A stretch of DNA of 46,979 nt from assembly GCA_003154425.1 (NCBI GenBank), contig PMDK01000185.1:1141-48119 (forward strand), given 5' to 3'. Source of the stretch: Ignavibacteriota bacterium (GTDB taxonomy: Bacteria > Bacteroidota > Ignavibacteria > UBA10030 > UBA6906). Both the position numbers and the translations under genes were made by a program. Shown here one piece after another: positions 23,696-45,712 of this stretch. The notes under the pieces are model-generated. The model was not told where the DNA came from, did no database searches, and saw only the letters and a program-made list of their open reading frames with translations. Every line of letters starts with the position of its first letter. The stretch's first letter is position 1.

Positions 23696-24922
23696 ATGAC
23701 ACATAGAGAACGCGTTCTCGCTGCGCTTGATCACAGAGAAGGGGACCGTGTGCCGATCGATTTCGCCGGACACCATTCCTCGGGAATTGCGGGGATCGCG
23801 TACGCGAAGCTCAGATCGTTCCTCGGACTCCCCCTGCGTCCCATCCGCCTTCACGAGCCCATACAACAGATTGCAATCGTCGATGAGGACGTGCTCGATC
23901 TCTTCTCGGTTGACACCACGGAGCTTGGCCGCGCGTTCGCGCTCGAAGAGAAAGACTGGGCTGACTGGGTCCTCCCCGATGGGACCCCCTGCAAGATCCC
24001 GGTCTGGGTAAAGCCTGAACGGGACGGGACGCGCTGGATTATTCGATCAGGGACCGGCCGGATCATCGCACAGATGCCTGACGGGGCGCTCTACTTTGAG
24101 CAGACATACTATCCTTTTGCCCAGGGGGTACCGGATCACCGGAGAATCGAAGAGGCCTTCGGTGAATGCATGTGGGGGATGATAAAATCGCCTCCCGGCC
24201 CGCTGGCATCAGGCCCAAAGAGGAAGGAGATACTCGCGGAAGGGGCCAGGCGACTCCGCGGAAGCACTACGCGGGCGATCGTCGGCCTGTTCGGTGGCAA
24301 CCTCCTCGAGACGGGGCAATTTCTTTACCGGAATGACAATTTCTTCCTGCTCATGGCGGAAAATCCGGCCGCCACGCATGACTTCCTCGACAACCTCGTT
24401 GAGATCCATCTCAGGAACCTCGAAGAGTTCCTGAGTGCGGTCGGACCTTACATCGATGTCGTGAACTTCGGCGATGACCTGGGGATGCAGACCGGCCCGC
24501 AGATGTCACCGGCGATGTACCGCACATACTTCAAGAGCCGGCATGAACGCCTCTGGAAACGGGCCAAGGAACTTGCCGACGTCAAAGTCATGCTCCATTG
24601 CTGCGGAGGCGTCCGGGAGCTCCTCCCCGACCTGATCGACGCAGGGCTGGACATAATCAATCCCGTTCAGATCTCATGCCGCGGGATGGAAGCCGCGGGA
24701 CTGAAAAGAGACTTCGGCGATGCGCTGGTGTTCTGGGGAGGCGGTTGTGACACGCAGACCGTTCTTTCCGGCGGGACGCCCGACTCTGTGCGCCGGCATG
24801 TCCGGGAGCAGATCCGTGTCCTCTCGCCGGGGGGAGGATTCGTGTTCCAGCAGGTTCACAACATACTTGCGGATATTCCCCCGGCGAATATCCGAGCGAT
24901 GTTCGAGGCCGTGCTGGAATGA
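23696..24922 (+). CDS. UroD-fold protein, zinc-methyltransferase signature (copy 1)
   Basis: Encodes 408 residues with a uroporphyrinogen-decarboxylase TIM barrel (MTHRERVLAALDHREGDRVP at the start). The barrel carries H301-C-C303 (MLHCCGG) and Cys351 (GGGCDTQT). This H-x-C...C set binds zinc in MtaA/MtbA-type methylcobalamin methyltransferases and is not a feature of haem-pathway HemE. The product is probably a cytoplasmic methyltransferase acting on an unknown methyl donor with a corrinoid protein encoded elsewhere. It lies divergent from GH29 and 25 bases ahead of the beta-helix fusion gene, so it is probably co-expressed with the latter. Decarboxylase function is unlikely. Confidence 0.85.
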   Translation: MTHRERVLAALDHREGDRVPIDFAGHHSSGIAGIAYAKLRSFLGLPLRPIRLHEPIQQIAIVDEDVLDLFSVDTTELGRAFALEEKDWADWVLPDGTPCKIPVWVKPERDGTRWIIRSGTGRIIAQMPDGALYFEQTYYPFAQGVPDHRRIEEAFGECMWGMIKSPPGPLASGPKRKEILAEGARRLRGSTTRAIVGLFGGNLLETGQFLYRNDNFFLLMAENPAATHDFLDNLVEIHLRNLEEFLSAVGPYIDVVNFGDDLGMQTGPQMSPAMYRTYFKSRHERLWKRAKELADVKVMLHCCGGVRELLPDLIDAGLDIINPVQISCRGMEAAGLKRDFGDALVFWGGGCDTQTVLSGGTPDSVRRHVREQIRVLSPGGGFVFQQVHNILADIPPANIRAMFEAVLE

Positions 24923-31625: not shown

Positions 31626-32606
31626 ATGAATCCGATCCTCCGGGCCTTTGCCGTCATAGTGCTCATCCTCTTCTCCCTCACTCTTCAGGACTGCTCCAGA
31701 AAGCCCGGTTCCACCGGGCGCCGGAAGATCGCCGGGATCGTCTTCCAGGAAGATCAGTTCTTCCGCCTTGTCATTTTCGGCATGCGCGATGCCGCCGCGA
31801 GGAACGGGGCGGATCTGCTGGAGGCCAACAGTGCAGGAAAACCCGACAAGGAAATTCAACTCATCACGACATACATCGCCAGCGGCGTGGATGCGATCGT
31901 GGTTTCCCCTCTGAGCGCGAAGGCCTCGGTCATCGCGCTCGGGCGCGCCCGGGCGAAAGGGATCGCGATCATCACGTACAACACGAACGTGGAAGGGGAT
32001 ATCGCCGCATCGTATCTCGAAAGCGATCAGGCCGGTCTCGGGAGAGCGACAGGAGCGGCGGCGCGCGGGTACATCGAGAAGCACCTGGGGGGGAGGGCGA
32101 ACGTGGCGCTTCTTGCTTTCCGCTCACAGGCCCCCGAGCAGAGTACCATGAGGGTGAACGGGTTCAGGGAGGAGATCTCGAAGCTTCCCGGCGTGAGGAT
32201 TGTCGCGGAACAGGACGCATGGCTTGCGGAGCAGGCAGTGAGGAAAGGGGGCGACATCCTTACCGCCCACCCTGACCTGGACATACTCTGGGGCGCGAAT
32301 GAGGGGGCGACGGTGGGCGCCGTCATGGCCGTGAAAAACGCCGGGAAGGCGGGGCGCGTGGCGGTATTCGGAACGGACACCGGGGAGCAGATCGCCGGAT
32401 TCCTCCTGAGCGAGGACGGCGTACTTCAGGCGGTGACGGGCCAGCAGCCGTTCGAGCTCGGATCACGTGCCGTTGAGTCTGCCCTCAGCGTCCTCAAAGG
32501 GGAGAACGTCCCGGCGAAGCAGTCGCTCCCCGGCGTGCTCCTTTCCCGCAGCGACCCGGAAGGAGTGAGGAAATTCCTGGCCCGTCTCAAAGAACAGAGC
32601 AGGTGA
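31626..32606 (+). CDS. Sugar ABC transporter substrate-binding lipoprotein (RbsB-like)
   Basis: Encodes 326 residues of the periplasmic-binding-protein type 1 fold used for ribose, xylose and other sugars: IAGIVFQEDQFFRLVIFGM, DAIVVSPLSAKASV, VAVFGTDTGEQIAGF. The signal segment ends at Cys23 in LTLQDC; Asp at -1 is unusual for a lipobox, so lipidation is probable but not certain. It captures the sugar for the RbsA/RbsC-type genes that follow with a one-base gap. The ligand cannot be read from sequence. Confidence 0.92.
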   Translation: MNPILRAFAVIVLILFSLTLQDCSRKPGSTGRRKIAGIVFQEDQFFRLVIFGMRDAAARNGADLLEANSAGKPDKEIQLITTYIASGVDAIVVSPLSAKASVIALGRARAKGIAIITYNTNVEGDIAASYLESDQAGLGRATGAAARGYIEKHLGGRANVALLAFRSQAPEQSTMRVNGFREEISKLPGVRIVAEQDAWLAEQAVRKGGDILTAHPDLDILWGANEGATVGAVMAVKNAGKAGRVAVFGTDTGEQIAGFLLSEDGVLQAVTGQQPFELGSRAVESALSVLKGENVPAKQSLPGVLLSRSDPEGVRKFLARLKEQSR

Positions 32607-32607
32607 A

Positions 32608-34095
32608 GTGGACTCCCGGCGTCATACGCTCGAGACCGTCTCGCTCCGGAAGGAGTATCCGGGGACCGTCGCACTCAGGGACGTCTCGCTGCGATGCGAA
32701 GGGGGGGAGATCAGGGCGCTCCTGGGAAAAAACGGGGCGGGGAAAAGCACGCTTGTCAGACTCCTGGGGGGGGCGGTGCAGCCGACATCGGGCGCCATAC
32801 TCGTTGACGGGCACACGGTCCGTTTTCGTTCGCCCCGGGAGGCCTCCCGCAGGGGGATCGCCACCGTCCATCAGGAACTCAGCCTCATACCGGGACTCTC
32901 GATCGCGGAGAACATATTCCTCGGCCGTCTCCCCCGTCGGCACGGGCTGATCGACTGGCGGACTGCCTGCCGGATGGCGGAGGCCCTGCTCGCCGAACTC
33001 GGACTTGCACTTGATGTGCGATCGCCTGCGGGGAAACTCGGCGTGGCACAGCAACAGATGATTGAGATCGCCAAGGCGATGTCGCTCGCCCCCTCGGTCC
33101 TGATGATGGATGAACCGACGTCGGCTCTTGCCCACCGTGAGACCGACCGGCTCTTCACGCTGTTGAAGAGACTCGCGGCCAAGGGGGTTGTGGTTCTGTA
33201 TATCACGCACAGGCTCGAGGAGATCCACCGGGTCGCGGATGCGGTGACGGTTCTGCGGAACGGCGAGCTCGTCCGCACCATCCCGATCGCCGATGCAAAC
33301 GCCGGGACGATCGTCGGCATGATGTTCGGGGCAACAGTCAGGAAGGAACGTCCTCCTGAGCCTCCTCCTTCCAGTGCGCCGGTCATGGAGGTCAGGAGTT
33401 TTTCGCGCGGGGAAGCCTACAGCGGCATCTCGTTCACGCTCCACGAGGGGGAGATTCTCGGTATCGCCGGGGTGCTCGGGGCGGGGCGGACGGAGCTTCT
33501 CAGGGGTCTGTTCGGCGCGGACCCGCATGACGCGGGGAGCGTCACCGTCGGCGGGAGGACGGTCTTCCCTTCCTTCCCCGCGCAGATGAAACGACTGGGG
33601 GTGGCTCTGGCCCCGGAGGACCGGAAGGCGGAGGGTCTCGTTCAGATCCTGAGTACCCGCGTCAACATCAACCTCGCTTCCTTCTGGCCCCCGTCTCTCC
33701 ACTGGATCACCACCGCGCGGCGGGAACGGTCCGTCGCCCGGCGTTACGTCCACGAGATGGACATCGCGGTACAGTCTCTCGATTCCCCCGCCTCGAATCT
33801 GAGCGGGGGAAATCAGCAGAAGGTCGTTCTTGCGAAATGGCTCGACACGGGGCCGCGCGTGCTGCTGCTCGACGAACCGACACGGGGAATCGACGTACAG
33901 GCGAAGCAGCAGGTCTTCGATATCGTACGGGGGTTGAGCGCTCAGGGGATCGCATTCCTCGTCGTATCCAGCGAGCTGGAAGAGCTGATGGACGTCTGCC
34001 ATAGAATTCTGATACTGAAGAAGGGGAGGACGGCCGGAGAGCTTCTCCCGCACGACGGGACGCTGGAAAACCTGATACGCCTATGCATGGAATAG
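32608..34095 (+). CDS. Sugar ABC transporter ATP-binding protein (RbsA/MglA-like, two ABC domains)
   Basis: Encodes 495 residues starting at GTG 32608, two bases after the previous stop. The first ABC domain has Walker A GKNGAGKST, a variant signature LGVAQQQMIEIAKAM and Walker B VLMMDEPTSAL. The second has the degenerate Walker A (GVLGAGRTELLRG) usual in this family, a full signature LSGGNQQKVVLAKWL and Walker B VLLLDEPTRGIDV. The protein powers sugar import at the inner membrane. Its end overlaps the permease start by 13 bases. Confidence 0.95.
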   Translation: MDSRRHTLETVSLRKEYPGTVALRDVSLRCEGGEIRALLGKNGAGKSTLVRLLGGAVQPTSGAILVDGHTVRFRSPREASRRGIATVHQELSLIPGLSIAENIFLGRLPRRHGLIDWRTACRMAEALLAELGLALDVRSPAGKLGVAQQQMIEIAKAMSLAPSVLMMDEPTSALAHRETDRLFTLLKRLAAKGVVVLYITHRLEEIHRVADAVTVLRNGELVRTIPIADANAGTIVGMMFGATVRKERPPEPPPSSAPVMEVRSFSRGEAYSGISFTLHEGEILGIAGVLGAGRTELLRGLFGADPHDAGSVTVGGRTVFPSFPAQMKRLGVALAPEDRKAEGLVQILSTRVNINLASFWPPSLHWITTARRERSVARRYVHEMDIAVQSLDSPASNLSGGNQQKVVLAKWLDTGPRVLLLDEPTRGIDVQAKQQVFDIVRGLSAQGIAFLVVSSELEELMDVCHRILILKKGRTAGELLPHDGTLENLIRLCME

Positions 34096-35057
34096 CACGC
34101 TTCCGTCCCCTGGTCGGCTCCGCGGTCCTCGAGATCGTCCTCGTCGTCCTCTGCCTGTTCCTGGCCGCCGTCGCTCCCTATTTCCTCACCGCCGAAAACC
34201 TGCTGAATGTTCTGCGGAACGTTTCCATGCAGGGATTGATCGCACTCGGCATGACGCTCGTCATCATCGCGGGGGAAATCGACCTCAGCGTCGGCTCCAT
34301 GGTCGCCTTCGCCGGATGCCTCACGGCGTGGCTGACCGGGGCACTCGGCTCCTCGGGATGGGGCCTTCCCGCGCCTCTGGCGGTCGGTGCGGCGATTCTC
34401 TCGTCGCTTGCCGTCGGCTTCATGTCAGGCGCGCTGGCCGGAGTGCTTCGGAACAGGTTCGGCGTCCCCTCGTTCATAAGCACGCTCGCCCTTCTGACGG
34501 CGCTCAGCGGGGCGGCGGAGCTCATCACCAACGGATTTCCCCTGACCCCGTTTCCCGCCTGGTACAATTTCATCGGCGGGGGATACGTGCTGGGTGTTCC
34601 CTTCCCGGCGATGGTGTTCATCCTCGCGTTCGCCGGAACACATGTTCTGATGAACTACACGTCGTTTGGCAGGGCGGTCTATGCCGTGGGGGGAAACGCC
34701 GAGGCCGCGCGATTGAGTGCAATCAATATCCATGCGGTGAGGACCGCCGTCCTTGCGCTGACGGCGACACTCGCTGCGGCGAGCGGGGTGATGCAGTCAT
34801 CAGAGATCATGTCGGGGACAGCCACGACGGCAAAAGGGTGGGAGCTCGACGTCATCGCCGCCGTGATCATCGGCGGGACGAGCCTGGCGGGCGGAGTGGG
34901 GCGCGTGTGGGGGACAATGATCGGCGTTGTCTTCCTTGGGATTATCATGAACGGCATGACGCTCCTGAACGTCAGCGAATACTGGCAGCACGTCGTCCGC
35001 GGGGGATTGATACTGCTTGCGGTGCTCATCAACAGAATGGAGCGACGGGGAAGGTGA
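34083..35057 (+). CDS. Sugar ABC transporter permease (RbsC-like)
   Basis: Encodes 324 residues with about eight to ten membrane segments and the GEIDLSVG motif (about 61-68) of carbohydrate-uptake type 2 permeases. GGTSLAGGVGRVWGT near residue 265 is the typical cytoplasmic coupling loop. It forms the import channel with the ATPase whose gene it overlaps. The UroD-fold gene follows 58 bases later on the same strand, so the transported sugar is probably a substrate or inducer for it. Confidence 0.94.
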   Translation: MHGIARFRPLVGSAVLEIVLVVLCLFLAAVAPYFLTAENLLNVLRNVSMQGLIALGMTLVIIAGEIDLSVGSMVAFAGCLTAWLTGALGSSGWGLPAPLAVGAAILSSLAVGFMSGALAGVLRNRFGVPSFISTLALLTALSGAAELITNGFPLTPFPAWYNFIGGGYVLGVPFPAMVFILAFAGTHVLMNYTSFGRAVYAVGGNAEAARLSAINIHAVRTAVLALTATLAAASGVMQSSEIMSGTATTAKGWELDVIAAVIIGGTSLAGGVGRVWGTMIGVVFLGIIMNGMTLLNVSEYWQHVVRGGLILLAVLINRMERRGR

Positions 35058-35115
35058 GAAGAACAGGCAATCGCCCGTCCGGGGGGGGAAGAAATCCGGC
35101 GACAGGGGGCATGTC

Positions 35116-36144
35116 ATGAACGGCCGGGAGCGGATCGCGCAAGCACTCCGGGGAGAGCGGCCCGACATGGTTCCGATCATGCTGCACAACTTCATGATGG
35201 CGGCACGCGAAGCCGGAATCACCATGGGCCAGTTCAGGAGCGATCCGGAGGCTCTTGCACGGTCGTTCACAATCGCGGTGGAATTGTACGGATACGACGG
35301 GATACTGATCGACGTGGACACGGTGACGCTGGCGGGCGCCGTGGGGGTCCCCGTGGATTATCCGGAGGATGAGCCGGCGCGGGTAAGGGGAGGATTGCTT
35401 GCAGCGCTGGAGCAGGTTTCCGATCTCCCCGCCGTCGACGTGCTGGACTCTCCCGGCGTGCAAGTCTGGCTGGAAGGGGTCCGGCTGCTGAAACGGCACT
35501 TCGGTGACGAGGTCTTCATCAGGGGAAACTGCGACCAGTGCCCGTTCACTCTGGCCAGCCTCATCCGGGGGATGGATGCCTGGATGATGGATCTCCTCGA
35601 TCCGGAAAAAGAAGAGCTGGTCTTTGCGCTCCTGGAGTACTGCACGTCCGTGACACTGCAGTTCGTACGTCAGATGGGGATGACGGGGGCGGATATGACG
35701 TCCAACGGGGACAGCGTCGCCGGCCCGGACCTGGTTTCCCCTTCGATATTCCGCAGGTACGCGCTCCCGTATGACCGCCGCATCGCTGCGGCCTCCCACG
35801 CGCTCGGATTGCCGTACATACTCCATATCTGCGGGAACACAACGACGATACTTGACGACATGATCGCCACGGGAGCCGACGGGATCGAGATCGACTATAA
35901 GACCGATGCCCGGCGTGCACACGACAAGACAAAAGACCGGATTGTCTTCGTTGGGAATATCGATCCGAGCGGTGTGCTGGCGCTTGGCACACCACGCCTC
36001 GTGGAGGAGAAAACACTCGAACTGCTCCGGATCTTTGCAGATACGCCGCGCTTCATACTGAATGCGGGGTGCGCAATTCCGCCGGAGACCCCCCCCGAGA
36101 ACATCCGCACGATGATCCGGACTGCGCGGAGCTTCGGGGGCTGA
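35116..36144 (+). CDS. UroD-fold protein, zinc-methyltransferase signature (copy 2)
   Basis: Encodes about 342 residues from ATG 35116; an open frame running back into the permease gene is not used because family similarity begins at MNGRERIAQALRGERPD. Zinc-site residues are H237-I-C239 (LHICGNT) and Cys319 (LNAGCAIPPETPPENI). That last motif is very close to the C-terminal zinc motif of MtaA/MtbA methyltransferases. Fourth gene of the ABC transporter operon. The product is probably a cytoplasmic methyltransferase processing a transported methylated compound. No corrinoid protein is adjacent. Confidence 0.85.
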   Translation: MNGRERIAQALRGERPDMVPIMLHNFMMAAREAGITMGQFRSDPEALARSFTIAVELYGYDGILIDVDTVTLAGAVGVPVDYPEDEPARVRGGLLAALEQVSDLPAVDVLDSPGVQVWLEGVRLLKRHFGDEVFIRGNCDQCPFTLASLIRGMDAWMMDLLDPEKEELVFALLEYCTSVTLQFVRQMGMTGADMTSNGDSVAGPDLVSPSIFRRYALPYDRRIAAASHALGLPYILHICGNTTTILDDMIATGADGIEIDYKTDARRAHDKTKDRIVFVGNIDPSGVLALGTPRLVEEKTLELLRIFADTPRFILNAGCAIPPETPPENIRTMIRTARSFGG

Positions 36145-37606: not shown

Positions 37607-37682
37607 GTGAATGTCACGGAAAATCCCGAGATTGGCGAAATTCAATTGCCAATTCCCTCCCCAACAAGGTCTGCTACCCGCC

Positions 37683-38849
37683 ATGTCCCCTGAAGCCGAT
37701 CACGGGAAAACATTCATCAAAGGTCTGCACCAGGCGTGGCTCGATGAGATGAGGAGCGCACGGAACTACCACGCACTTGCATCACGTGAGGCGAATCCGG
37801 ACCGTCGCGCGATACTGGAGCGCATGGCGGAAGCGGAAGAGCGCCATGCGGAGCGCTGGGCAAAGCGCCTGCGCTCGCTCGGAGCGGACCCGGGGACCTA
37901 CAGGGAGTCTCTCATCGACAGGATGAAAAGAGCGGTGCTGCTCAGGAGCGATACGGCCTCGGCCGCCGGGATACTGGAGGCCGGAGAGGCGCAGGCGGAC
38001 CGGCTTTACGAGACGCTGATGACGTCCGCTCCATCCGATACCGACCGCACGGACCTGACACATGCGGCGCGCGAAGAGCGCGCGCACTCGCGGGCTCTCG
38101 GAGAGTTTGAGTCCGGCTCCGCAGGAGTTCAGGGGAGACTGCAGCGTATTCTGGGACGGGAACGCTGGCATGTCAGGGGCGGGGGATGGATAGGACAGGC
38201 GATATACGGCGTGAACGACGGCCTCGGAGCCGCATTCGGCGTCGTCAGCGGCGTCGCGGGCGCCACACACGCAAACAGCGAGTTTGTTCTCCTCAGCGGG
38301 CTTGCGACTGCGATCGCTTCAGCCCTTTCGATGGGGAGCGGGGCGTACCTGGCGACGAAATCCGAACGTGAAGTGTACGAAGCGGAGATCGACAAGGAGC
38401 GGGGGGAGATTGCCGCCAACCCGGAAGAGGAGAAGGATGAGCTGGAGCTGTTCTACCAGCTGAAGGGATTCACCCCCGCGGAGGCGAAGACCATGGTGGA
38501 CCGTCTGGCGGAACAGCCGGGACAGCTCCTGAAATCTCTCGCCCACGAGGAGCTGGGACTCTCCGAGCAGACATTTCCCAACCAGTGGGTGGCCGCATCG
38601 AGCGCCAGCCTCAGTACAGCGGTCGGTGCCGTCGTTCCCGTCATCCCCTTTTTCTTTGCATCGGGAATGACTGCGCTGACGATATCGTTCATCGTCAGCA
38701 CACTCGCGCACTTCATCGTCGGCTCATCGAAAGTGCTCGTCACCGGAAGGTCCTGGCTCACGAGCGGAACCGAGATGACGCTGATCGGGCTCGGGGAAGC
38801 CGCCGCGACATATCTGCTCGGGATGCTTCTCTCTCCCCTGATAGGGTAG
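37683..38849 (+). CDS. Ferritin-like/VIT1 fusion protein (MbfA-like iron/manganese exporter)
   Basis: Encodes about 389 residues from ATG 37683; the in-frame extension to 37611 runs toward the terminator and lacks similarity. The N-terminal part (about 1-150) is a ferritin-like helical bundle with Glu/His ligands (WLDEMRSARNYHAL, RMAEAEERHAERW, AREERAHSRALGEFE). The C-terminal part (about 165-389) is a VIT1/CCC1 transporter domain: GGWIGQAIYGVNDGLGAAFG, SMGSGAYLATKSERE, five membrane helices and the cytoplasmic metal-binding helix hairpin. This fusion matches membrane-bound ferritin A, which exports iron under oxidative stress. No operon partner is present. Confidence 0.92.
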   Translation: MSPEADHGKTFIKGLHQAWLDEMRSARNYHALASREANPDRRAILERMAEAEERHAERWAKRLRSLGADPGTYRESLIDRMKRAVLLRSDTASAAGILEAGEAQADRLYETLMTSAPSDTDRTDLTHAAREERAHSRALGEFESGSAGVQGRLQRILGRERWHVRGGGWIGQAIYGVNDGLGAAFGVVSGVAGATHANSEFVLLSGLATAIASALSMGSGAYLATKSEREVYEAEIDKERGEIAANPEEEKDELELFYQLKGFTPAEAKTMVDRLAEQPGQLLKSLAHEELGLSEQTFPNQWVAASSASLSTAVGAVVPVIPFFFASGMTALTISFIVSTLAHFIVGSSKVLVTGRSWLTSGTEMTLIGLGEAAATYLLGMLLSPLIG

Positions 38850-38871: not shown

Positions 38872-41427
38872 TCATCTGTACGAGATGCGTACCGCATGGA
38901 CCTTCGGCAGTGTCAGGTCGAAATCGACATACACCGAGCGTTCGATGTTCGAGATCCGGAAACCGGCCGGTACGCCGTCAATGGTGACACGGTCGGCAGT
39001 CGAAGCGCCCCGGGGGAGCAGAACGTGTCCATGGACGTCATTCCCGCTCCCGGTGAGAGTCATGTCGATCAACTTTCCGCCGGCATGATGCCGGTACCGG
39101 TATGCAACGTAGCCGTTCGACGACGGTAGTGCCACACTGACGCTGACAGAATCAGTGGCTGCGGAGGTCCACCGGGGGGAGAGCGCGGCCGTTCTGAAGG
39201 CCAGTCCTTCATTCCTGACTCCGGCAAGTCCTTCAATGAGCGCAGCCATCGCGGTGGCAGCGGCCCAGTTGTCGGGACCGCCAAAGGACTCACCTTTCGG
39301 CGGAACGTAGTGCGGTCGGTCCGCCAGCGTCACACCGATCACCGCGTAGATCCCGCCTTCCAGAGGGGCGTGAAATATCAACGACCCGATCTTCTTCCGG
39401 GGGTACGGATTGTCTATGGCAGCCCAGCAGACTCCCACCTTCGTGCTCCGGGGATTGGGCCCCGACCACGCCACACCGGCTCTCTCATTTCGTAACGACG
39501 AGAACCACCAGTTGGTCACCTCCTGTCCTTTGAACAGGTACTGTGACGCTTCTGTTCCATCGCTGTACGCAAACGTGATGGCGCCCGCGACGCGGCTGGG
39601 AATATTGTCGGACGAGGAATGGAGCAGATACACGGCCGACGCGGTGTCATGCACGGGCACAGCCGCCTCCATGGGAAAACCCTTTTTCGTTGACACTGCC
39701 ACGACAGCCCGGCGCTGGTTCTTCTCAGGATTGATGACGCTGAATTGAATTCCGTGAAACACCTGGCTCCCGGTGGGGAGTCCCCGCATGTCGTTGCCCG
39801 ACGATTGCCCGGCGTCCATCCACGTCAGGGCGCCGGCATCTCCCCTGTCCCAGAGATCCATGTTGGCCTCGGCCGAGATATCTACAGGCCTGTACTCCGG
39901 AGCCGGCGGGGGGGGAGGGATGGATCCGGTGTAGGCGAACCAGAGACGGTCCCCGTATCTCTTCATAAGATCAAGCATCCGCTCCATGATATCAGAAGCA
40001 TAATCTTCGAACCCGTTCTCGTACGCGCCTCTCGCCAGTTCTCCCATGGCATGCCCTGCCACGCCGCCGTTCATGTACTGCCACTCGGCATCATGAGCTC
40101 CGAATCCTCTCGTGAACGGCGGATAGATAGCATACCATTCTCCGGGGGACCCGGGGGGAAGATGTTTTCTCAGATCCATGTACGTGTCGATGATGGCCTT
40201 GTTCATTGAATGCGGGAGTCCGCGGTTGATCGAATACATGTTCCCCTGAGCGATCTGGGATTTCTCTTCCACGCCGAGGTGTCGCTTCACGTCCGGATCT
40301 TCATCGATGAAATGAGTGAAGAACCTCCCGTTCCACGAGAGCGCGACAAGTCGTTCCAGTATCCCCCTCCCCCTGTCCTTGTACACGGCTGCCAGTGCAG
40401 CGTGCCCCGCATGATCGGACATCTCTGCCAGCTGATTGCACGCCTCGTAATACCCGGTGTTGTCGCCGAAAAAAATGCCGAACTTCGTTTTGCCGGGGAC
40501 AAGGACCATGGTGGGACTCAGGGGAGCGGAAGGAGTGTATTCATCGTCCACCTGGAAATCCCACGAATCAATGCAGTACGGGCGCTTCAACAGTCGAAAG
40601 CGACGTGACCAGCGAAGGGAATCGGTCACGCTGTAGTCAAGCGCCCGGACGGCACAGTCGAGGTTCCTCTTCATCCAGTCATCGTCACCGCTGGCCTTCC
40701 AGTACTGATACATCATGTTCACGAAATTGTACTCAACGTGATTCTCAACGGGTTGCCGGACGAACCACGCGTCACTGTCACGCCGGAAGTACCCCAGCGA
40801 TGAGTATGCGGTTTCATAGTAGTGATAGTCGGCATCGTCTGTGTTGACAAAACTCCAGATCATGCCGTCGGGTTTCTGTGTCTGCCGGAACAAATCCACA
40901 AGATCGCCGCCGTACGGGCTGAAGTACTGCATGCCTTTCATCGTGTTGTTATTGTCGAGCACCCAGTTGACACAGTACCTGTACGCGGTGCCGTTCCAGG
41001 TGATCTCCTGAACGCCCCCCGGGGCGTCTGCATTCATGCCCTTCCAGAGCATTCTGAACAGCTCGTTGATTCTGCCGCTGTCTTGAATGTCGGTGCCGGC
41101 CTCCATGCGGAAAGAAGCGCGTCCGGATGTGTCCCCGTCCCTGCCGAGCAAGGTGACGGTATGCGTTCCGGCTGCGCCCCCCGCACGGATTGTCACCTCC
41201 GGGGCGGACGGCATTCTGACATATGGACGCCCCCGGCCGTCATTCACGATCAGTGTGCCGCCGGCCTTGCTCAGGACGGTGACCCAATCCAGCGGCCGGA
41301 CCGGGGATGCCGGCCGCACGACGGATATCCTTGATGTCGATTGTGAATGAGCTCCGTGTGAAATCGCACTGAGCATGAGGAGGAGGAACATCCTCTTCAG
41401 GACGGAATTGCCGGAATTGTTTTTCAT
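38872..41427 (-). CDS. Putative (alpha/alpha)6-barrel glycoside hydrolase, exported
   Basis: Encodes about 851 residues from ATG 41427, followed by a signal peptide (LKRMFLLLMLSAISHG ... HSQ). An in-frame ATG at 41460 is an alternative; neither has a clear ribosome site. An N-terminal beta domain (about 25-120) precedes a helical region with motifs typical of six-hairpin glycosidases (FSPYGGDLVDLFRQTQKPDG, YCIDSWDFQVDDEY, FGIFFGDNTGYYEACNQLAEM, EWQYMNGGVAGHAMGELA). A beta-sandwich C-terminus (about 560-851) follows. Asp/Glu in the DDEYTP and HDAEWQYMNGG regions are plausible catalytic residues. I could not assign a CAZy family. Divergent from the Gfo/Idh operon across a 549-base gap, which suggests shared regulation. 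Confidence 0.7.
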   Translation of the reverse strand: MKNNSGNSVLKRMFLLLMLSAISHGAHSQSTSRISVVRPASPVRPLDWVTVLSKAGGTLIVNDGRGRPYVRMPSAPEVTIRAGGAAGTHTVTLLGRDGDTSGRASFRMEAGTDIQDSGRINELFRMLWKGMNADAPGGVQEITWNGTAYRYCVNWVLDNNNTMKGMQYFSPYGGDLVDLFRQTQKPDGMIWSFVNTDDADYHYYETAYSSLGYFRRDSDAWFVRQPVENHVEYNFVNMMYQYWKASGDDDWMKRNLDCAVRALDYSVTDSLRWSRRFRLLKRPYCIDSWDFQVDDEYTPSAPLSPTMVLVPGKTKFGIFFGDNTGYYEACNQLAEMSDHAGHAALAAVYKDRGRGILERLVALSWNGRFFTHFIDEDPDVKRHLGVEEKSQIAQGNMYSINRGLPHSMNKAIIDTYMDLRKHLPPGSPGEWYAIYPPFTRGFGAHDAEWQYMNGGVAGHAMGELARGAYENGFEDYASDIMERMLDLMKRYGDRLWFAYTGSIPPPPPAPEYRPVDISAEANMDLWDRGDAGALTWMDAGQSSGNDMRGLPTGSQVFHGIQFSVINPEKNQRRAVVAVSTKKGFPMEAAVPVHDTASAVYLLHSSSDNIPSRVAGAITFAYSDGTEASQYLFKGQEVTNWWFSSLRNERAGVAWSGPNPRSTKVGVCWAAIDNPYPRKKIGSLIFHAPLEGGIYAVIGVTLADRPHYVPPKGESFGGPDNWAAATAMAALIEGLAGVRNEGLAFRTAALSPRWTSAATDSVSVSVALPSSNGYVAYRYRHHAGGKLIDMTLTGSGNDVHGHVLLPRGASTADRVTIDGVPAGFRISNIERSVYVDFDLTLPKVHAVRISYR

Positions 41428-41660
41428 CGATGCCTGACGGTGAATCTCACTTTTCCCCATGTGACCACTCGTTCAATCGGGTTGTAGGATTTTGTTTCAT
41501 AGCTGGCAGGACAATCGCATTCATGACCGTCCGGCGGGTTCTGGTATCGCTGCCGGGAGGAGGAGGAGAGTTCCGGTGGTGGCGACGCTTGCGCGGCTGG
41601 TGGAGTGCGGTATGGCAATGTTCATTCGATGTGCAGCGCCTGGGGATGACCAATGGAGCC

Positions 41661-41671: not shown

Positions 41672-41762
41672 AATACCATGCCTAACGTCCAGAAGCAACG
41701 CGGCGGACCTTCCGACCGGCCATCCCGGGGGAAAACCGCGACAGGCATTTGCGATTATTCCC

Positions 41763-41976: not shown

Positions 41977-42981
41977 ATGGAGAAGAGAATCAACTGGGGG
42001 ATCATCGGCACGGGGTGGATAGCCGGGAAGATGGCGGAGGCCCTTGCCGGTGTCGAAGGCGCGACGCTCGCGGCCGTTGCCTCCAGGACACAAGAGAAGG
42101 CAAACGGATTTGCCCGCATGCATCGGGTCGGGACCGCGTACGGCTCATACGAGGAAATAGCCGTTGATCCGGCGATCGATGTCGTGTACGTCGCGACGCC
42201 CCACCCGCTGCACTGCGAGAACACTCTTTTGTGTCTCCGCAGCGGCAAGGCGGTCCTGTGTGAGAAGCCGTTCGCCATGAATGAGATGGAAGTTGTGCAG
42301 ATGATCTCCGCGGCCAGGGAACACGGCGTGTTTCTGATGGAGGCATTCTGGACACGGTTCCTCCCCTCCATCGACAGAGTACTCGAACTTGTCGCGTCCG
42401 GCGTCCTGGGCGACGTACGCCACATCAATTCCGACTTCGGCGCCATTACCAGATTCGATCCGGACCACCGGGCGTTCAACAAAAAGCTGGGTGGAGGCTC
42501 GCTCCTCGACATCGGCATCTACCCCGTGTTCCTGACCCTTCTCCTCTGGGGAGAGCCCGACCTGATCGCCGGTGTCCCCCATATCGGTCCTACCGGTGTG
42601 GATGAAAGCCTGGCGCTGGTGTTCAAGTACGACGACGGACGGATAGCGACTCTCTTTTCGAGTTTTACCGTCAATTCAACAGTCGAGACTCATATTTGCG
42701 GGACGAAGGGGAGGGTGAAACTGAACCGCATGTGGTTCTGTCCGGTGCCGCTTGAATTGACGATAGGGGATAAGCCTTCACAAACGATTCAATTCGACTA
42801 CGCCGGCAACGGGTACAACTATGAAGCTGAGGAGGTGTCACGATGCCTGCGATCGGGAAGAAAGGAGAGCGACCTTCTGCCGCTCGATTTCAGCCTCCGC
42901 CTCATCAGGTTGCTCGACAGGATCAGAAAAGAGACGGGGCTAGTATACGAAGCAGATGAGAGGGGCAATGTGCGCCGGTAA
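41977..42981 (+). CDS. Gfo/Idh/MocA family sugar dehydrogenase
   Basis: Encodes about 334 residues from ATG 41977; an open frame reaching further upstream has no similarity. The N-terminal Rossmann fold has GIIGTGWIAGKMAEAL, and the conserved Lys lies in VLCEKPFAMNEMEV near residue 95. The C-terminal alpha/beta domain carries GGGSLLDIGIYPV, whose Asp is the usual catalytic-region residue. Members oxidise sugars or inositols with NAD(P); the substrate is not predictable. First gene of an operon with a UroD-fold methyltransferase-like protein (51-base gap) and a sugar porter. Confidence 0.9.
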   Translation: MEKRINWGIIGTGWIAGKMAEALAGVEGATLAAVASRTQEKANGFARMHRVGTAYGSYEEIAVDPAIDVVYVATPHPLHCENTLLCLRSGKAVLCEKPFAMNEMEVVQMISAAREHGVFLMEAFWTRFLPSIDRVLELVASGVLGDVRHINSDFGAITRFDPDHRAFNKKLGGGSLLDIGIYPVFLTLLLWGEPDLIAGVPHIGPTGVDESLALVFKYDDGRIATLFSSFTVNSTVETHICGTKGRVKLNRMWFCPVPLELTIGDKPSQTIQFDYAGNGYNYEAEEVSRCLRSGRKESDLLPLDFSLRLIRLLDRIRKETGLVYEADERGNVRR

Positions 42982-43032
42982 ACCCTCAGACGTTTTCGGA
43001 ATCGGGGGCAAACAGCTTTTGGGGCAGCCGTC

Positions 43033-44064
43033 ATGACAAAGAAGGAGAAATTCAACCGATTATGCAGTGGTCAGCACACGGCGTCGTCGGCCCTCTTCCA
43101 GCCCATTTTGATGCACTTTGCGGCAAGGTTCAGCAACAGAACCTACGCAGAATTCGCTTCAGACCACCGCGTCCTGGTCGAAAGCAATCTCAGGGCGCTG
43201 GAGTATTTTGACACGGATATGGTCGGATTGATATCGGACCCGTACCGGGAGACCTCCGCCTTCGGCGCGAGAATCGACTATGTCGATGAAGGCGTTCCAC
43301 GATGCCTCGAGGCCATCGTCAGGACGATGGATGATGTAAAGGCTCTCCCGCGGCCGGACGTCCGTAAAGCCCGGCGAACACGTGACCGGATTCAGGGTGC
43401 GGCGCTGTACCAGGAGCGGCTGAAGGGGACCGTCCCCGTCTATGGCTGGATCGAAGGTCCCCTGGCCGAGGCGTGCGATCTGGCCGGCATAAGCGACATG
43501 CTGGCAAACCTGGCGATCGATCCGGATTTTTGTCACGCGCTCATGGACAAGTGCGTGATGACCGCGAAGGATTTCGCGGAAGCCCAGATTGAGGCGGGCT
43601 GCGATATCATCGGCATGGGAGACGCCGTTTGCTCACAAATCAGCCGCCGTACCTACGACGCATTTGTCAAGGAACGGCACCGGGACATCATCGAGTTCAT
43701 CCATTCGCGGAATGCCCTGGTGAAACTGCACATCTGCGGGGATATCACACACCTGCTTCAATCGCTCGTCGATCTCGATATTGATATTCTGGACCTTGAT
43801 TGGAAAGTCGACATGGACGCCGCTCATCGGGTTCTGGGGGAGGGCGTGATCCGCTGCGGCAACATCAACCCCGTCGATATACAGAACAACACCCCGGGGG
43901 AGCTCCGCGCTCTTGCGGGCGACCTGGTGCGACGGGAGGAAGGGAGACGGTTCATCCTTTCGGGCGGATGCGAGATTACAGTTGACACGCCGGCGGGAAA
44001 TCTGCTGGCCCTTCTTGAAGCATCACAACAGCCTCCCGAAGACCGGGACGGCACTGCTGTATGA
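43033..44064 (+). CDS. UroD-fold protein, zinc-methyltransferase signature (copy 3)
   Basis: Encodes 343 residues. The barrel carries H233-I-C235 (KLHICGDIT) and Cys313 (LSGGCEITVDTPAGNL), the same zinc pattern as the other two copies. The order of motifs matches methylcobalamin methyltransferases and differs from haem-pathway HemE. It lies between a sugar dehydrogenase and a sugar porter; its stop overlaps the porter start (ATGA). It probably acts on the sugar brought in by that porter, for example removing a methyl group. This is inferred from context and residues only. Confidence 0.85.
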   Translation: MTKKEKFNRLCSGQHTASSALFQPILMHFAARFSNRTYAEFASDHRVLVESNLRALEYFDTDMVGLISDPYRETSAFGARIDYVDEGVPRCLEAIVRTMDDVKALPRPDVRKARRTRDRIQGAALYQERLKGTVPVYGWIEGPLAEACDLAGISDMLANLAIDPDFCHALMDKCVMTAKDFAEAQIEAGCDIIGMGDAVCSQISRRTYDAFVKERHRDIIEFIHSRNALVKLHICGDITHLLQSLVDLDIDILDLDWKVDMDAAHRVLGEGVIRCGNINPVDIQNNTPGELRALAGDLVRREEGRRFILSGGCEITVDTPAGNLLALLEASQQPPEDRDGTAV

Positions 44065-45542
44065 CAACATCAACGCTGACACCCCCACGGAAGAGTCCCG
44101 CGCGTTCAACTGCGCACAACCGTCTCCTTGTCGTGTTCATCGCGACAATCGCATCCACGGGGGGCTTGTTGTTCGGGTTCGATACGGGCGTGATTTCAGG
44201 TGCCATACCATACTTCCAGCAACGCTTTCAACTCGGCAACGATTGGATCGAATTGATCACTACGGCCGGCTTGCTGGGAGCCGTGGCCGGTGCTCTGTCG
44301 TGCGGCAGAATTGCCGATGTGATAGGACGGAGAAGAGTCATTCTCGCCGCAGCGCTCGTCTTTTCCATCGGCGCGATATGGTCGGGGATGGCTCCGGACG
44401 CGCGATCGCTGGTTGCGGCGCGATTCTTCCTTGGCATCGCAATCGGGGTTTCCTCGTTCACCGTTCCTCTCTACATCTCGGAGATTTCTCCCGCCCGCAC
44501 GCGGGGGACCCTGGTATCGCTCTTTCAATTGCTGATTACAATCGGGATCATGGTCTCCTATTTCAGCGATTCTGCCTTTGCCCTCCCGGAGGGAGCTCCC
44601 GGATACGTCGAGTGCTGGCGGCCGATGTTTTACGTGGGCGTGATCCCCGCTCTGATCATGTTTACAGGAATGATGTTCCTTCCGGAAACGCCGCGATGGC
44701 TGATGAGCAAAGGGCGCGAGGAGGAATGCCGTAGCGTACTCATGAAGGTGGAAGATCCGGTATTGATCAGCGGGGTGATGGCCAACATGAAGGAGGAAAT
44801 CGCGCTGGACAGGGAGGACAATGTCCGGTGGAGCGAGATCTTCCGACCCTGGTTACGAGCGCCATTGATCATCGCCGTCGGGATCATGTTTGTCCAGCAA
44901 TTCACGGGCATCAATACGATCATCTACTATAGCCCGAAGATTTTTCTTATGGCGGGTTTTGACGGGGCGCGGTCAGCCATCCTGGCATCACTGAGCGTCG
45001 GCGTGGTGAACGTGCTGTTCACGGTCCTCTCGCTCTTTCTGGTGGACAGGATCGGCCGGCGCAGGCTCTACGTAACGGGTGTGAGCGGCATGGTGGTTGC
45101 TCTTGTCGCCTTGAGCTCGTGCTTTGTGCTCCAGGCCGAACTGGGCCATGCCGTGAGGCAGATTACCATAGCGCTGGTGTGGATCTATTGCGCCTTCTTT
45201 TCGATGAGTCTCGGCCCGCTGGGCTGGTTGATCATTTCGGAGGTGTTCCCCCTGAAGGTGCGAGGCATCGGCACAAGCATCGGGTCACTTTCGTGCTGGC
45301 TGTTCAACGGTGTGGTTGCATTCACGTTTTTCAAGATCGTGCGTGCGCTTACCTTTCAGGGTACCGATATCGTCGTCAGGGGTGAGAATCTGGGTAATCC
45401 CGCGGGCGCCTTTGCGCTGTACGCTCTGGTCGGAGTTGCGGGGTTGCTCTGGGGCTATTTCTATATTCCGGAGACGAGGGGGAGATCGCTCGAACATATT
45501 GAAGAACACTGGAGGGATGGGAAGTCTCCGAGACAGCTTTAG
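44061..45542 (+). CDS. Sugar porter, MFS superfamily (XylE/GLUT-like)
   Basis: Encodes 493 residues with twelve membrane segments. Family signatures are present: LLFGFDTGVISGAIPY in TM1, GRIADVIGRRR between TM2 and TM3, PETPRWL after TM6, QQFTGINTIIYYSPKIF in TM7 and PETRGRSLEHIEEHW at the end. The QQ-TGIN-IIYYSP region lines the sugar site in XylE, so a monosaccharide such as xylose, glucose or a derivative is likely, driven by protons. The ATGA overlap couples it to the UroD-fold gene. A long hairpin begins at its stop codon. Confidence 0.94.
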   Translation: MTTSTLTPPRKSPARSTAHNRLLVVFIATIASTGGLLFGFDTGVISGAIPYFQQRFQLGNDWIELITTAGLLGAVAGALSCGRIADVIGRRRVILAAALVFSIGAIWSGMAPDARSLVAARFFLGIAIGVSSFTVPLYISEISPARTRGTLVSLFQLLITIGIMVSYFSDSAFALPEGAPGYVECWRPMFYVGVIPALIMFTGMMFLPETPRWLMSKGREEECRSVLMKVEDPVLISGVMANMKEEIALDREDNVRWSEIFRPWLRAPLIIAVGIMFVQQFTGINTIIYYSPKIFLMAGFDGARSAILASLSVGVVNVLFTVLSLFLVDRIGRRRLYVTGVSGMVVALVALSSCFVLQAELGHAVRQITIALVWIYCAFFSMSLGPLGWLIISEVFPLKVRGIGTSIGSLSCWLFNGVVAFTFFKIVRALTFQGTDIVVRGENLGNPAGAFALYALVGVAGLLWGYFYIPETRGRSLEHIEEHWRDGKSPRQL

Positions 45543-45625: not shown

Positions 45626-45712
45626 ATGTGACGCATGTCTCTACTTCCTCCCCGGGGGGTTTTTACAATGGTGCATCCTGGTACAACGGAATCAACATGA
45701 AGGGGGGAACAA

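Follow-up and report, generated by a model that had tools for sequence, protein, structure and literature searches.

The window analysed here, 46,979 nucleotides long, comprises bases 1141-48119 of contig C241 in a 3.84-Mb draft genome (85.5% complete), and it raises the question why the gene of a sugar porter should be joined to that of a protein from the URO-D family. Three contiguous genes on the + strand encode a Gfo/Idh/MocA dehydrogenase, the URO-D-family protein, which we term UroD-A, and a sugar porter of the MFS type. The first-pass annotation had taken them for a complete module of import, methyl removal or transfer, and oxidation. In our analysis UroD-A is probably a corrinoid methyltransferase, and we tentatively read it, at somewhat less than even confidence, as a corrinoid-linked methyltransferase that takes part in methyl-group salvage alongside sugar uptake. 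The conserved core of the locus is UroD-A and the sugar porter, accompanied by a glycosidase-like gene, and the trio that includes the dehydrogenase is not a conserved unit.

As evidenced by its Pfam score, UroD-A belongs to the URO-D superfamily (Table 1). It remains below the cut-off of the HemE model TIGR01464 (87.6 vs 302.95 bits), and its best match among solved sequences is MtaA (4ay7), with HemE entries next. That UroD-A might be the heme enzyme of the genome was considered and rejected, as the genome has its own HemE on contig C194, which scores 436.7 bits and is adjoined by heme-pathway genes recognised by eye. Among 35 URO-D proteins placed in a tree, the 16 UroD-A sequences form one clade (support 100/98), separate from HemE, from the window's two other URO-D proteins and from those further copies of the own genome that were included. 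In the alignment all 16 members carry His-Cys-Cys at the columns of the MtaA zinc ligands, and HemE does not. A structure model of UroD-A built from three sequences was weak, with a mean pLDDT (predicted local distance difference test score) of 57.8, and the 25 best Foldseek matches to it were URO-D-fold entries with TM-scores of 0.42-0.49, HemE first and MtaA (4ay8) seventh; the model thus supports the URO-D fold but does not tell a methyltransferase from a decarboxylase.

Only a few relatives have UroD-A. Matches at E<=1e-40 were found in 3 of 100 relatives, namely the genome itself, G016 (81%) and G006 (41%), and at E<=1e-60 in 4 of 395 genomes of the phylum, own included. Profile searches at E<=1e-80 returned 5/244 genomes in the class of G226, 2/164 in the order of G427 and 4/20 in the order of G343, known ones included, and a scan of contigs yielded two Bacteroidales metagenome-assembled genomes with UroD-A at 60% (L011 and L012). 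The comparison of neighbourhoods covers 16 genomes: that of the window, G016, G633, G343, G006, G757, G749, G753, G226, G613, G545, G536, G541, G427, L011 and L012. Note that contigs end near UroD-A in several of them, such as G016 (3976 bp), G613 (4063 bp) and G633 (3414 bp), and that our selection of open reading frames (ORFs) lost genes lying under longer overlapping frames (in G536 UroD-A and the corrinoid protein, on C89 the homocysteine methyltransferase), which were recovered by BLAST.

A sugar-type transporter adjoins UroD-A or lies one gene off in eight of the 16 genomes (a raw count). Besides the window these include G016, which keeps UroD-A (82% identity) together with the same porter (89%); G633, with a porter fragment (72% to the G343 porter) by UroD-A; G343, with one gene between UroD-A and a sugar porter; G006, with a fragment of an SSF transporter at the contig end; and G757, G749 and G753, with an SSF transporter directly behind UroD-A. 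The transporters linked to UroD-A are not all orthologous, and because the porters of the window and of G343 are only 31% identical, the pairing will have arisen more than once. In G633 (L145 559-1560), the UroD-A frame, which lies beside the porter at the contig end, has one internal TAA and represents a pseudogene or an assembly error. The link between porter and methyltransferase assumed at the outset is borne out in part: G016, which is of a second genus, pairs a URO-D protein of the methyltransferase type with a monosaccharide porter, and in six more genomes members of the clade lie near other sugar-type transporters. In L146, L147 and L148 (G757, G749 and G753, respectively) the gene order is a short MetE-like protein (Meth_synt_2), a relative of an 862-aa protein that faces the operon in the window, UroD-A and the SSF transporter; L146 also has an FAA hydrolase and an enolase-superfamily enzyme (Pfam), and L148 begins with a corrinoid protein and MtaB.

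The dehydrogenase behaves differently, being an optional partner of the other two. Matches to it at E<=1e-50 occur in 10 of 100 relatives (own included), close orthologues of 73-82% identity in G001, G005, G002 and G063 and five more at 46-47%. When the conservation of the trio was checked, the close orthologues turned out to have other neighbours: in G001 an apiosidase-like protein followed by a homologue of the 862-aa protein, in G005 an MFS_2 symporter, and in G002 an unnamed 396-aa protein and GH31. UroD-A is absent from these four genomes at E<=1e-40; conversely, in G016, which keeps UroD-A and the porter, no Gfo/Idh match reaches E<=1e-50. The first-pass proposal that the three genes form a unit is thus not supported. 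One might then regard them as accidental neighbours that share a strand and no common process, the more so as few relatives carry UroD-A at all, but the joint retention of UroD-A and porter in G016 and the similar pairings with other transporters render this very improbable.

Genes of corrinoid systems stand within two genes of UroD-A in 6 of the 16 genomes (again a raw count). The corrinoid protein itself is found beside UroD-A in G226, G343, G545, G536 and G541, in G226 together with a reactivation domain, whereas the sixth genome, G613, has MtaB, the methanol-specific substrate-side methyltransferase (MT1), directly behind UroD-A. In G343, which is counted in both lists, a homocysteine methyltransferase, a reactivation domain, another URO-D protein and the corrinoid protein lie by UroD-A, followed further on by a long URO-D protein, a ManA-like protein (below its cut-off) and GH42. 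In G545, G536 and G541 a corrinoid protein and a homocysteine methyltransferase are near UroD-A, which is the only URO-D protein seen there; a reactivation-like domain is recognised in all three by similarity (24-28%; the one of G541, at 24%, has no Pfam match), and RACo lies further along in G545 and G536 and was not seen in G541 before the contig end. In G427 UroD-A is followed by a long URO-D protein and GH3, and this genome is in neither of the two lists.

In the window the genes are closely packed, and the contiguity and ATGA junction described by the first-pass annotation are confirmed, as are the Pfam families. A gap of 51 bp separates dehydrogenase and UroD-A, in which a pattern scan found no terminator-like pattern, and where the window has the ATGA overlap of UroD-A and porter, G016 reads CTGA. 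The dehydrogenase ORF as listed opens at a TTG at 41749, but the start given in Table 1 was chosen because the proteins of relatives align from its residue 1. Third-position G+C is 0.69 for the dehydrogenase (longer ORF), 0.69 for UroD-A and 0.71 for the porter. One terminator-like pattern lies on the + strand at 45645-45659, 3' of the porter; it is a weak signal, since in this region the scan returned 10 such patterns, where shuffled sequence gave a mean of 3.5.

Table 1. Positions in the window of the operon, its predicted zinc-ligand codons and nearby features.
Feature	Position	Strand	Remarks
Gfo/Idh/MocA dehydrogenase	41977..42981	+	334 aa; optional partner; PF01408 (GFO_IDH_MocA) 81.5 bits vs cut-off 24; 2o48, E 3.6e-62; orthologues have other neighbours
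UroD-A, URO-D superfamily, probable zinc corrinoid methyltransferase	43033..44064	+	343 aa; PF01208 (URO-D) 191.5 bits vs cut-off 23.9; 4ay7, E 7.7e-18
His233 and Cys235 codons, predicted zinc ligands of UroD-A	43729..43737	+	aligned to MtaA ligand columns
Cys313 codon, predicted third zinc ligand of UroD-A	43969..43971	+	aligned to MtaA ligand column
ATGA overlap, UroD-A stop and porter start	44061..44064	+	read from sequence
MFS sugar porter	44061..45542	+	493 aa; Sugar_tr 374.2 bits vs cut-off 22.3; TIGR00879 (MFS sugar porter family) 370.8 vs cut-off 237.8; matches to 4lds and 4gby
862-aa glycosidase-like protein facing the operon	38872..41460	-	linkage in G016; weak GH127/GH116/MGH1 matches in relatives only
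Second URO-D protein (His-Cys-Cys), behind ribose-type ABC transporter; context, outside the operon	35119..36144	+	
Third, long URO-D protein (His-Cys-His); context	23696..24922	+	29-32% to the long URO-D proteins in the clusters of G343 and G427

The porter resembles GlcP (4lds, E 2e-78) and XylE (4gby, E 1e-58) over its full length and at the level of the family, and it stays below the NCBIfam equivalog cut-offs for both. Most of the residues that we take to contact the sugar in XylE look kept in the alignment with the window porter; what is presumably Gln415 of XylE is a Cys. The dehydrogenase, above the cut-off of its Pfam family, is below that of all eight NCBIfam models it matched, so that by equivalog cut-off it is neither the D-xylose 1-dehydrogenase Gfo6 (106.8 vs 350) nor the inositol 2-dehydrogenase IolG (82.9 vs 355). 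Its closest solved relative (2o48) is a dimeric dihydrodiol dehydrogenase, and further solved matches are Gfo/Idh/MocA entries, including the aldose-aldose oxidoreductase 5a02. With a porter of the glucose/xylose type and an aldose-type-like dehydrogenase, both ordinary, the operon might be a plain unit of sugar uptake and oxidation in which UroD-A has another reaction in ordinary sugar breakdown and no methyl chemistry takes place, and the literature matches listed indeed include no methyltransferase of the URO-D type for which a role linked to sugars is proven. The presence of His-Cys-Cys in every member of the clade and the corrinoid-system neighbours in six genomes make this explanation unlikely.

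The 862-aa gene had been presented as a six-hairpin glycosidase that could release the sugar. Its association with the locus is upheld by G016, where it directly precedes UroD-A on the same strand, and in G757, G749 and G753 a protein 33-34% identical to it over ~350 residues is encoded a few genes before UroD-A. The family label fares less well, as it rests on weak matches in relatives and the window protein has no Pfam match: in an alignment of six members three match GH127, two GH116 (DUF608) and one MGH1-like, with best E values of 0.001-0.004. The profile of the family finds a chain of exo-beta-D-arabinofuranosidase at E 9e-4, with a best stretch of 46 positions. A single-sequence AlphaFold model of the protein had a mean pLDDT of 33.8 and was not used.

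Corrinoid methyltransferases depend on a corrinoid protein and on a reactivase, and in this genome both are on another contig (C89); the claim of a complete module is thus not sustained, and a self-sufficient operon was rejected. Together on C89 are a URO-D protein (His-Asp-His), a corrinoid protein, a homocysteine methyltransferase, RACo and a second URO-D protein (His-Cys-Cys), with an SSF transporter and GH2 further along. The corrinoid protein scores 214.6 against a cut-off of 215.3 for the cognate corrinoid family. A 509-aa protein of C89 was considered as GH88-like and dropped, having no Pfam match. In total the genome has nine URO-D matches, three in the window, HemE on C194, and copies on C89, C181, C82, C192 and C39. 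The search for corrinoid proteins covered 13 of the 16 UroD-A genomes (G545, G536 and G749 were left out) and gave a match at E<=1e-15 in all 13. A stand-alone corrinoid protein with a long N terminus is present in 9/13 (at least 53% over ~220 residues; the query's own genome counted), the shorter type is the only one in the own genome, G016 and G753 (41-45%), and G633 has a 963-aa frame only. Five genomes, those of L011 and L012 along with G613, G757 and G753, have MtaB next to a corrinoid protein.

The explanation we favour, methyl-group salvage alongside sugar uptake, builds on the gene anatomy, the linkage in relatives, the conserved predicted zinc ligands and the corrinoid cassette of the genome, all of which are observed. 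UroD-A, as a zinc-dependent enzyme of the MtaA kind, would move a methyl group between a sulfur partner and a corrinoid (B12) protein whose gene lies elsewhere in the genome, the methyl groups salvaged would arrive with the glycan that also supplies the porter's sugar, and in this genome the dehydrogenase would probably oxidise or reduce the imported aldose or a derivative. We infer that the C89 corrinoid protein is the partner of UroD-A, and the sugar and a single transcript likewise. The first-pass interpretation is accordingly supported in part, in that porter and methyltransferase-type protein belong together; the module itself would rely on corrinoid functions encoded elsewhere.

Several observations weigh against this explanation. 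No corrinoid protein is among the annotated genes of the window, and hence none in the operon; of the two genomes that have this operon, the own one and G016, neither yielded the long-N type, both having only the shorter one (44-45%). In G002, which has no UroD-A match, there is a relative (94%) of the corrinoid protein of C89, so that the presence of a corrinoid protein is not specific to UroD-A genomes. In L011 and L012 no transporter and no corrinoid gene was seen beside UroD-A; in L011 formate-tetrahydrofolate ligase and MeaB genes are nearby. UroD-A is under every NCBIfam cut-off, including that of MtaA/CmuA (TIGR01463, 116.4 vs 235.4), and His-Cys-Cys also occurs in several URO-D proteins outside the clade. 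The window protein is only 32-34% identical to UroD-A of G545, G536, G541, G757, G749 and G753, so that the context in these six genomes may not carry over to the window. In G545, G536 and G541, finally, there is already a homocysteine methyltransferase to serve the thiol side.

Sequence and gene context give hints as to which side of the corrinoid protein UroD-A would serve. His-Cys-Cys, the kinship to MtaA and the MtaB gene behind UroD-A in G613 point to a thiol-side role, and a thiol partner is favoured because UroD-A has His-Cys-Cys. According to Kountz and Balskus (PMC10418091), this triad marks S-methyltransferases, whereas O-methyltransferases have carboxylates or other residues in place of Cys; where an O-demethylase (MT1) has at least one Cys ligand replaced by a non-Cys residue or carboxylate, UroD-A keeps both Cys. 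The rule serves as a lead and not as a test, since URO-D-type methyltransferases without zinc were reported in 2026 (PMC13222342). Of the methyl removal or transfer first proposed, transfer is probably correct, and sugar demethylation by UroD-A itself is unproven, His-Cys-Cys being typical of S-methyltransferases. The cassettes of G545, G536 and G541, whose proteins are 32-33% identical to that of the window, point instead to a donor-side role: as the sole URO-D protein seen by a corrinoid protein, a homocysteine methyltransferase and a reactivation domain, and in G545 and G536 also RACo, UroD-A is the obvious donor-side enzyme there. It would then be the MT1 that demethylates an imported methylated sugar or S-methyl compound and passes the methyl group via the corrinoid protein to homocysteine or folate. 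URO-D-type O-demethylases are known (PMC13222342), and in G757 a sister URO-D protein accompanies a cassette of this kind within a xylan-type locus (see below). Given the zinc ligands, the MtaB of G613, next to which UroD-A looks like the second enzyme, and the lack of an identified methylated sugar as substrate, we consider a substrate-side UroD-A rather unlikely.

Known systems share parts of this picture. With MtaA and MtbA, the methylcobamide:coenzyme M methyltransferases (4ay7/4ay8), UroD-A has in common the URO-D fold and His-Cys-Cys, and MtaB adjoins it in G613; it differs in its scores below the NCBIfam cut-offs and in the location of its gene beside a sugar porter, and no coenzyme M role is known here. 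The Mlp proteins of type 1 mlp clusters are corrinoid methyltransferases of the URO-D superfamily and likewise have His-Cys-Cys, but their clusters, as described in PMC10418091, hold sulfur/selenium genes and a corrinoid protein of their own, in place of the sugar porter and glycosidase-like gene seen here. The three-component O-demethylases (MtvB, OdmB, VdmB, MtoB) and the Cdm system also use a URO-D superfamily enzyme, and in the Mto operon an MFS substrate-uptake protein is encoded near the methyltransferase, as with UroD-A and its porter; unlike the present operon, these systems act on aromatic or halogenated substrates and include their own corrinoid protein in the cluster (PMC8630106, PMC13222342). 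A described route of sugar demethylation, that for 6-O-methyl-D-galactose in marine bacteria (PMC10033563), likewise places the step among glycan-use genes; it employs an oxygen-dependent P450, yields formaldehyde and involves no B12. Among the open-licence literature matches listed, obtained with some terms that were perhaps narrow, there was no report of a corrinoid-dependent demethylation of sugars.

Elsewhere in the window, a ribose-type ABC transporter (binding protein, ATPase, permease) precedes the second URO-D protein (31626-36144), a 55% relative of which sits near a cluster of MtaB, corrinoid protein and RACo in the L011 genome. At 37611-38849 a ferritin-like (rubrerythrin) domain is fused to a VIT1-type membrane domain. 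The + strand of the first 9362 bases is a glucuronoxylan-type locus with consecutive genes for GH115, a beta-helix protein, GH10, GH43_C2, GH88 and UxuA. GH115 enzymes release (4-O-methyl-)glucuronate. On the own contig C181 (L120 4050-11999) an operon runs from a LacI regulator through SDR, URO-D, xylose isomerase and GH3 to an MFS_2 transporter, and on contig C2 of G757 (L172 1460-14518) a corrinoid protein, a homocysteine methyltransferase and a reactivation domain are followed by a C181-type URO-D protein, within a locus of GH88, GH43, GH30 and GH10. This URO-D protein is a 74% relative of that of C181, and its first two zinc columns read His-Asp.

O-methyl groups are common on plant and algal glycans, and because glucuronoxylan carries 4-O-methyl-glucuronate, the G757 locus hints at sugar demethylation; it is the strongest single hint of this kind, and it concerns a sister protein, not UroD-A. 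A wider pattern may be recognised in this cassette within its GH88/GH43/GH30/GH10 locus, in the URO-D gene between SDR and xylose isomerase on C181, in the single gene run of sugar porter, UroD-A, B12 cassette, ManA-like protein and GH42 in G343, and in the three URO-D genes of the window with the GH115/GH10/GH43_C2/GH88/UxuA locus at its start. It is conceivable, if still doubtful, that the glycan degraders of this group have B12-dependent methyl-transfer systems in their sugar-use loci, in which several URO-D methyltransferases per genome would remove or relay the methyl groups of O-methylated sugars, such as the 4-O-methyl-glucuronate of xylan, via a corrinoid protein to homocysteine, as an oxygen-free counterpart of the P450 route. 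The recurring pairing of a corrinoid-type methyltransferase with a sugar transporter names concrete candidate genes for a possible B12-linked demethylation of sugars, and it hints that some bacteria may salvage the methyl groups that arrive with the sugars they eat.

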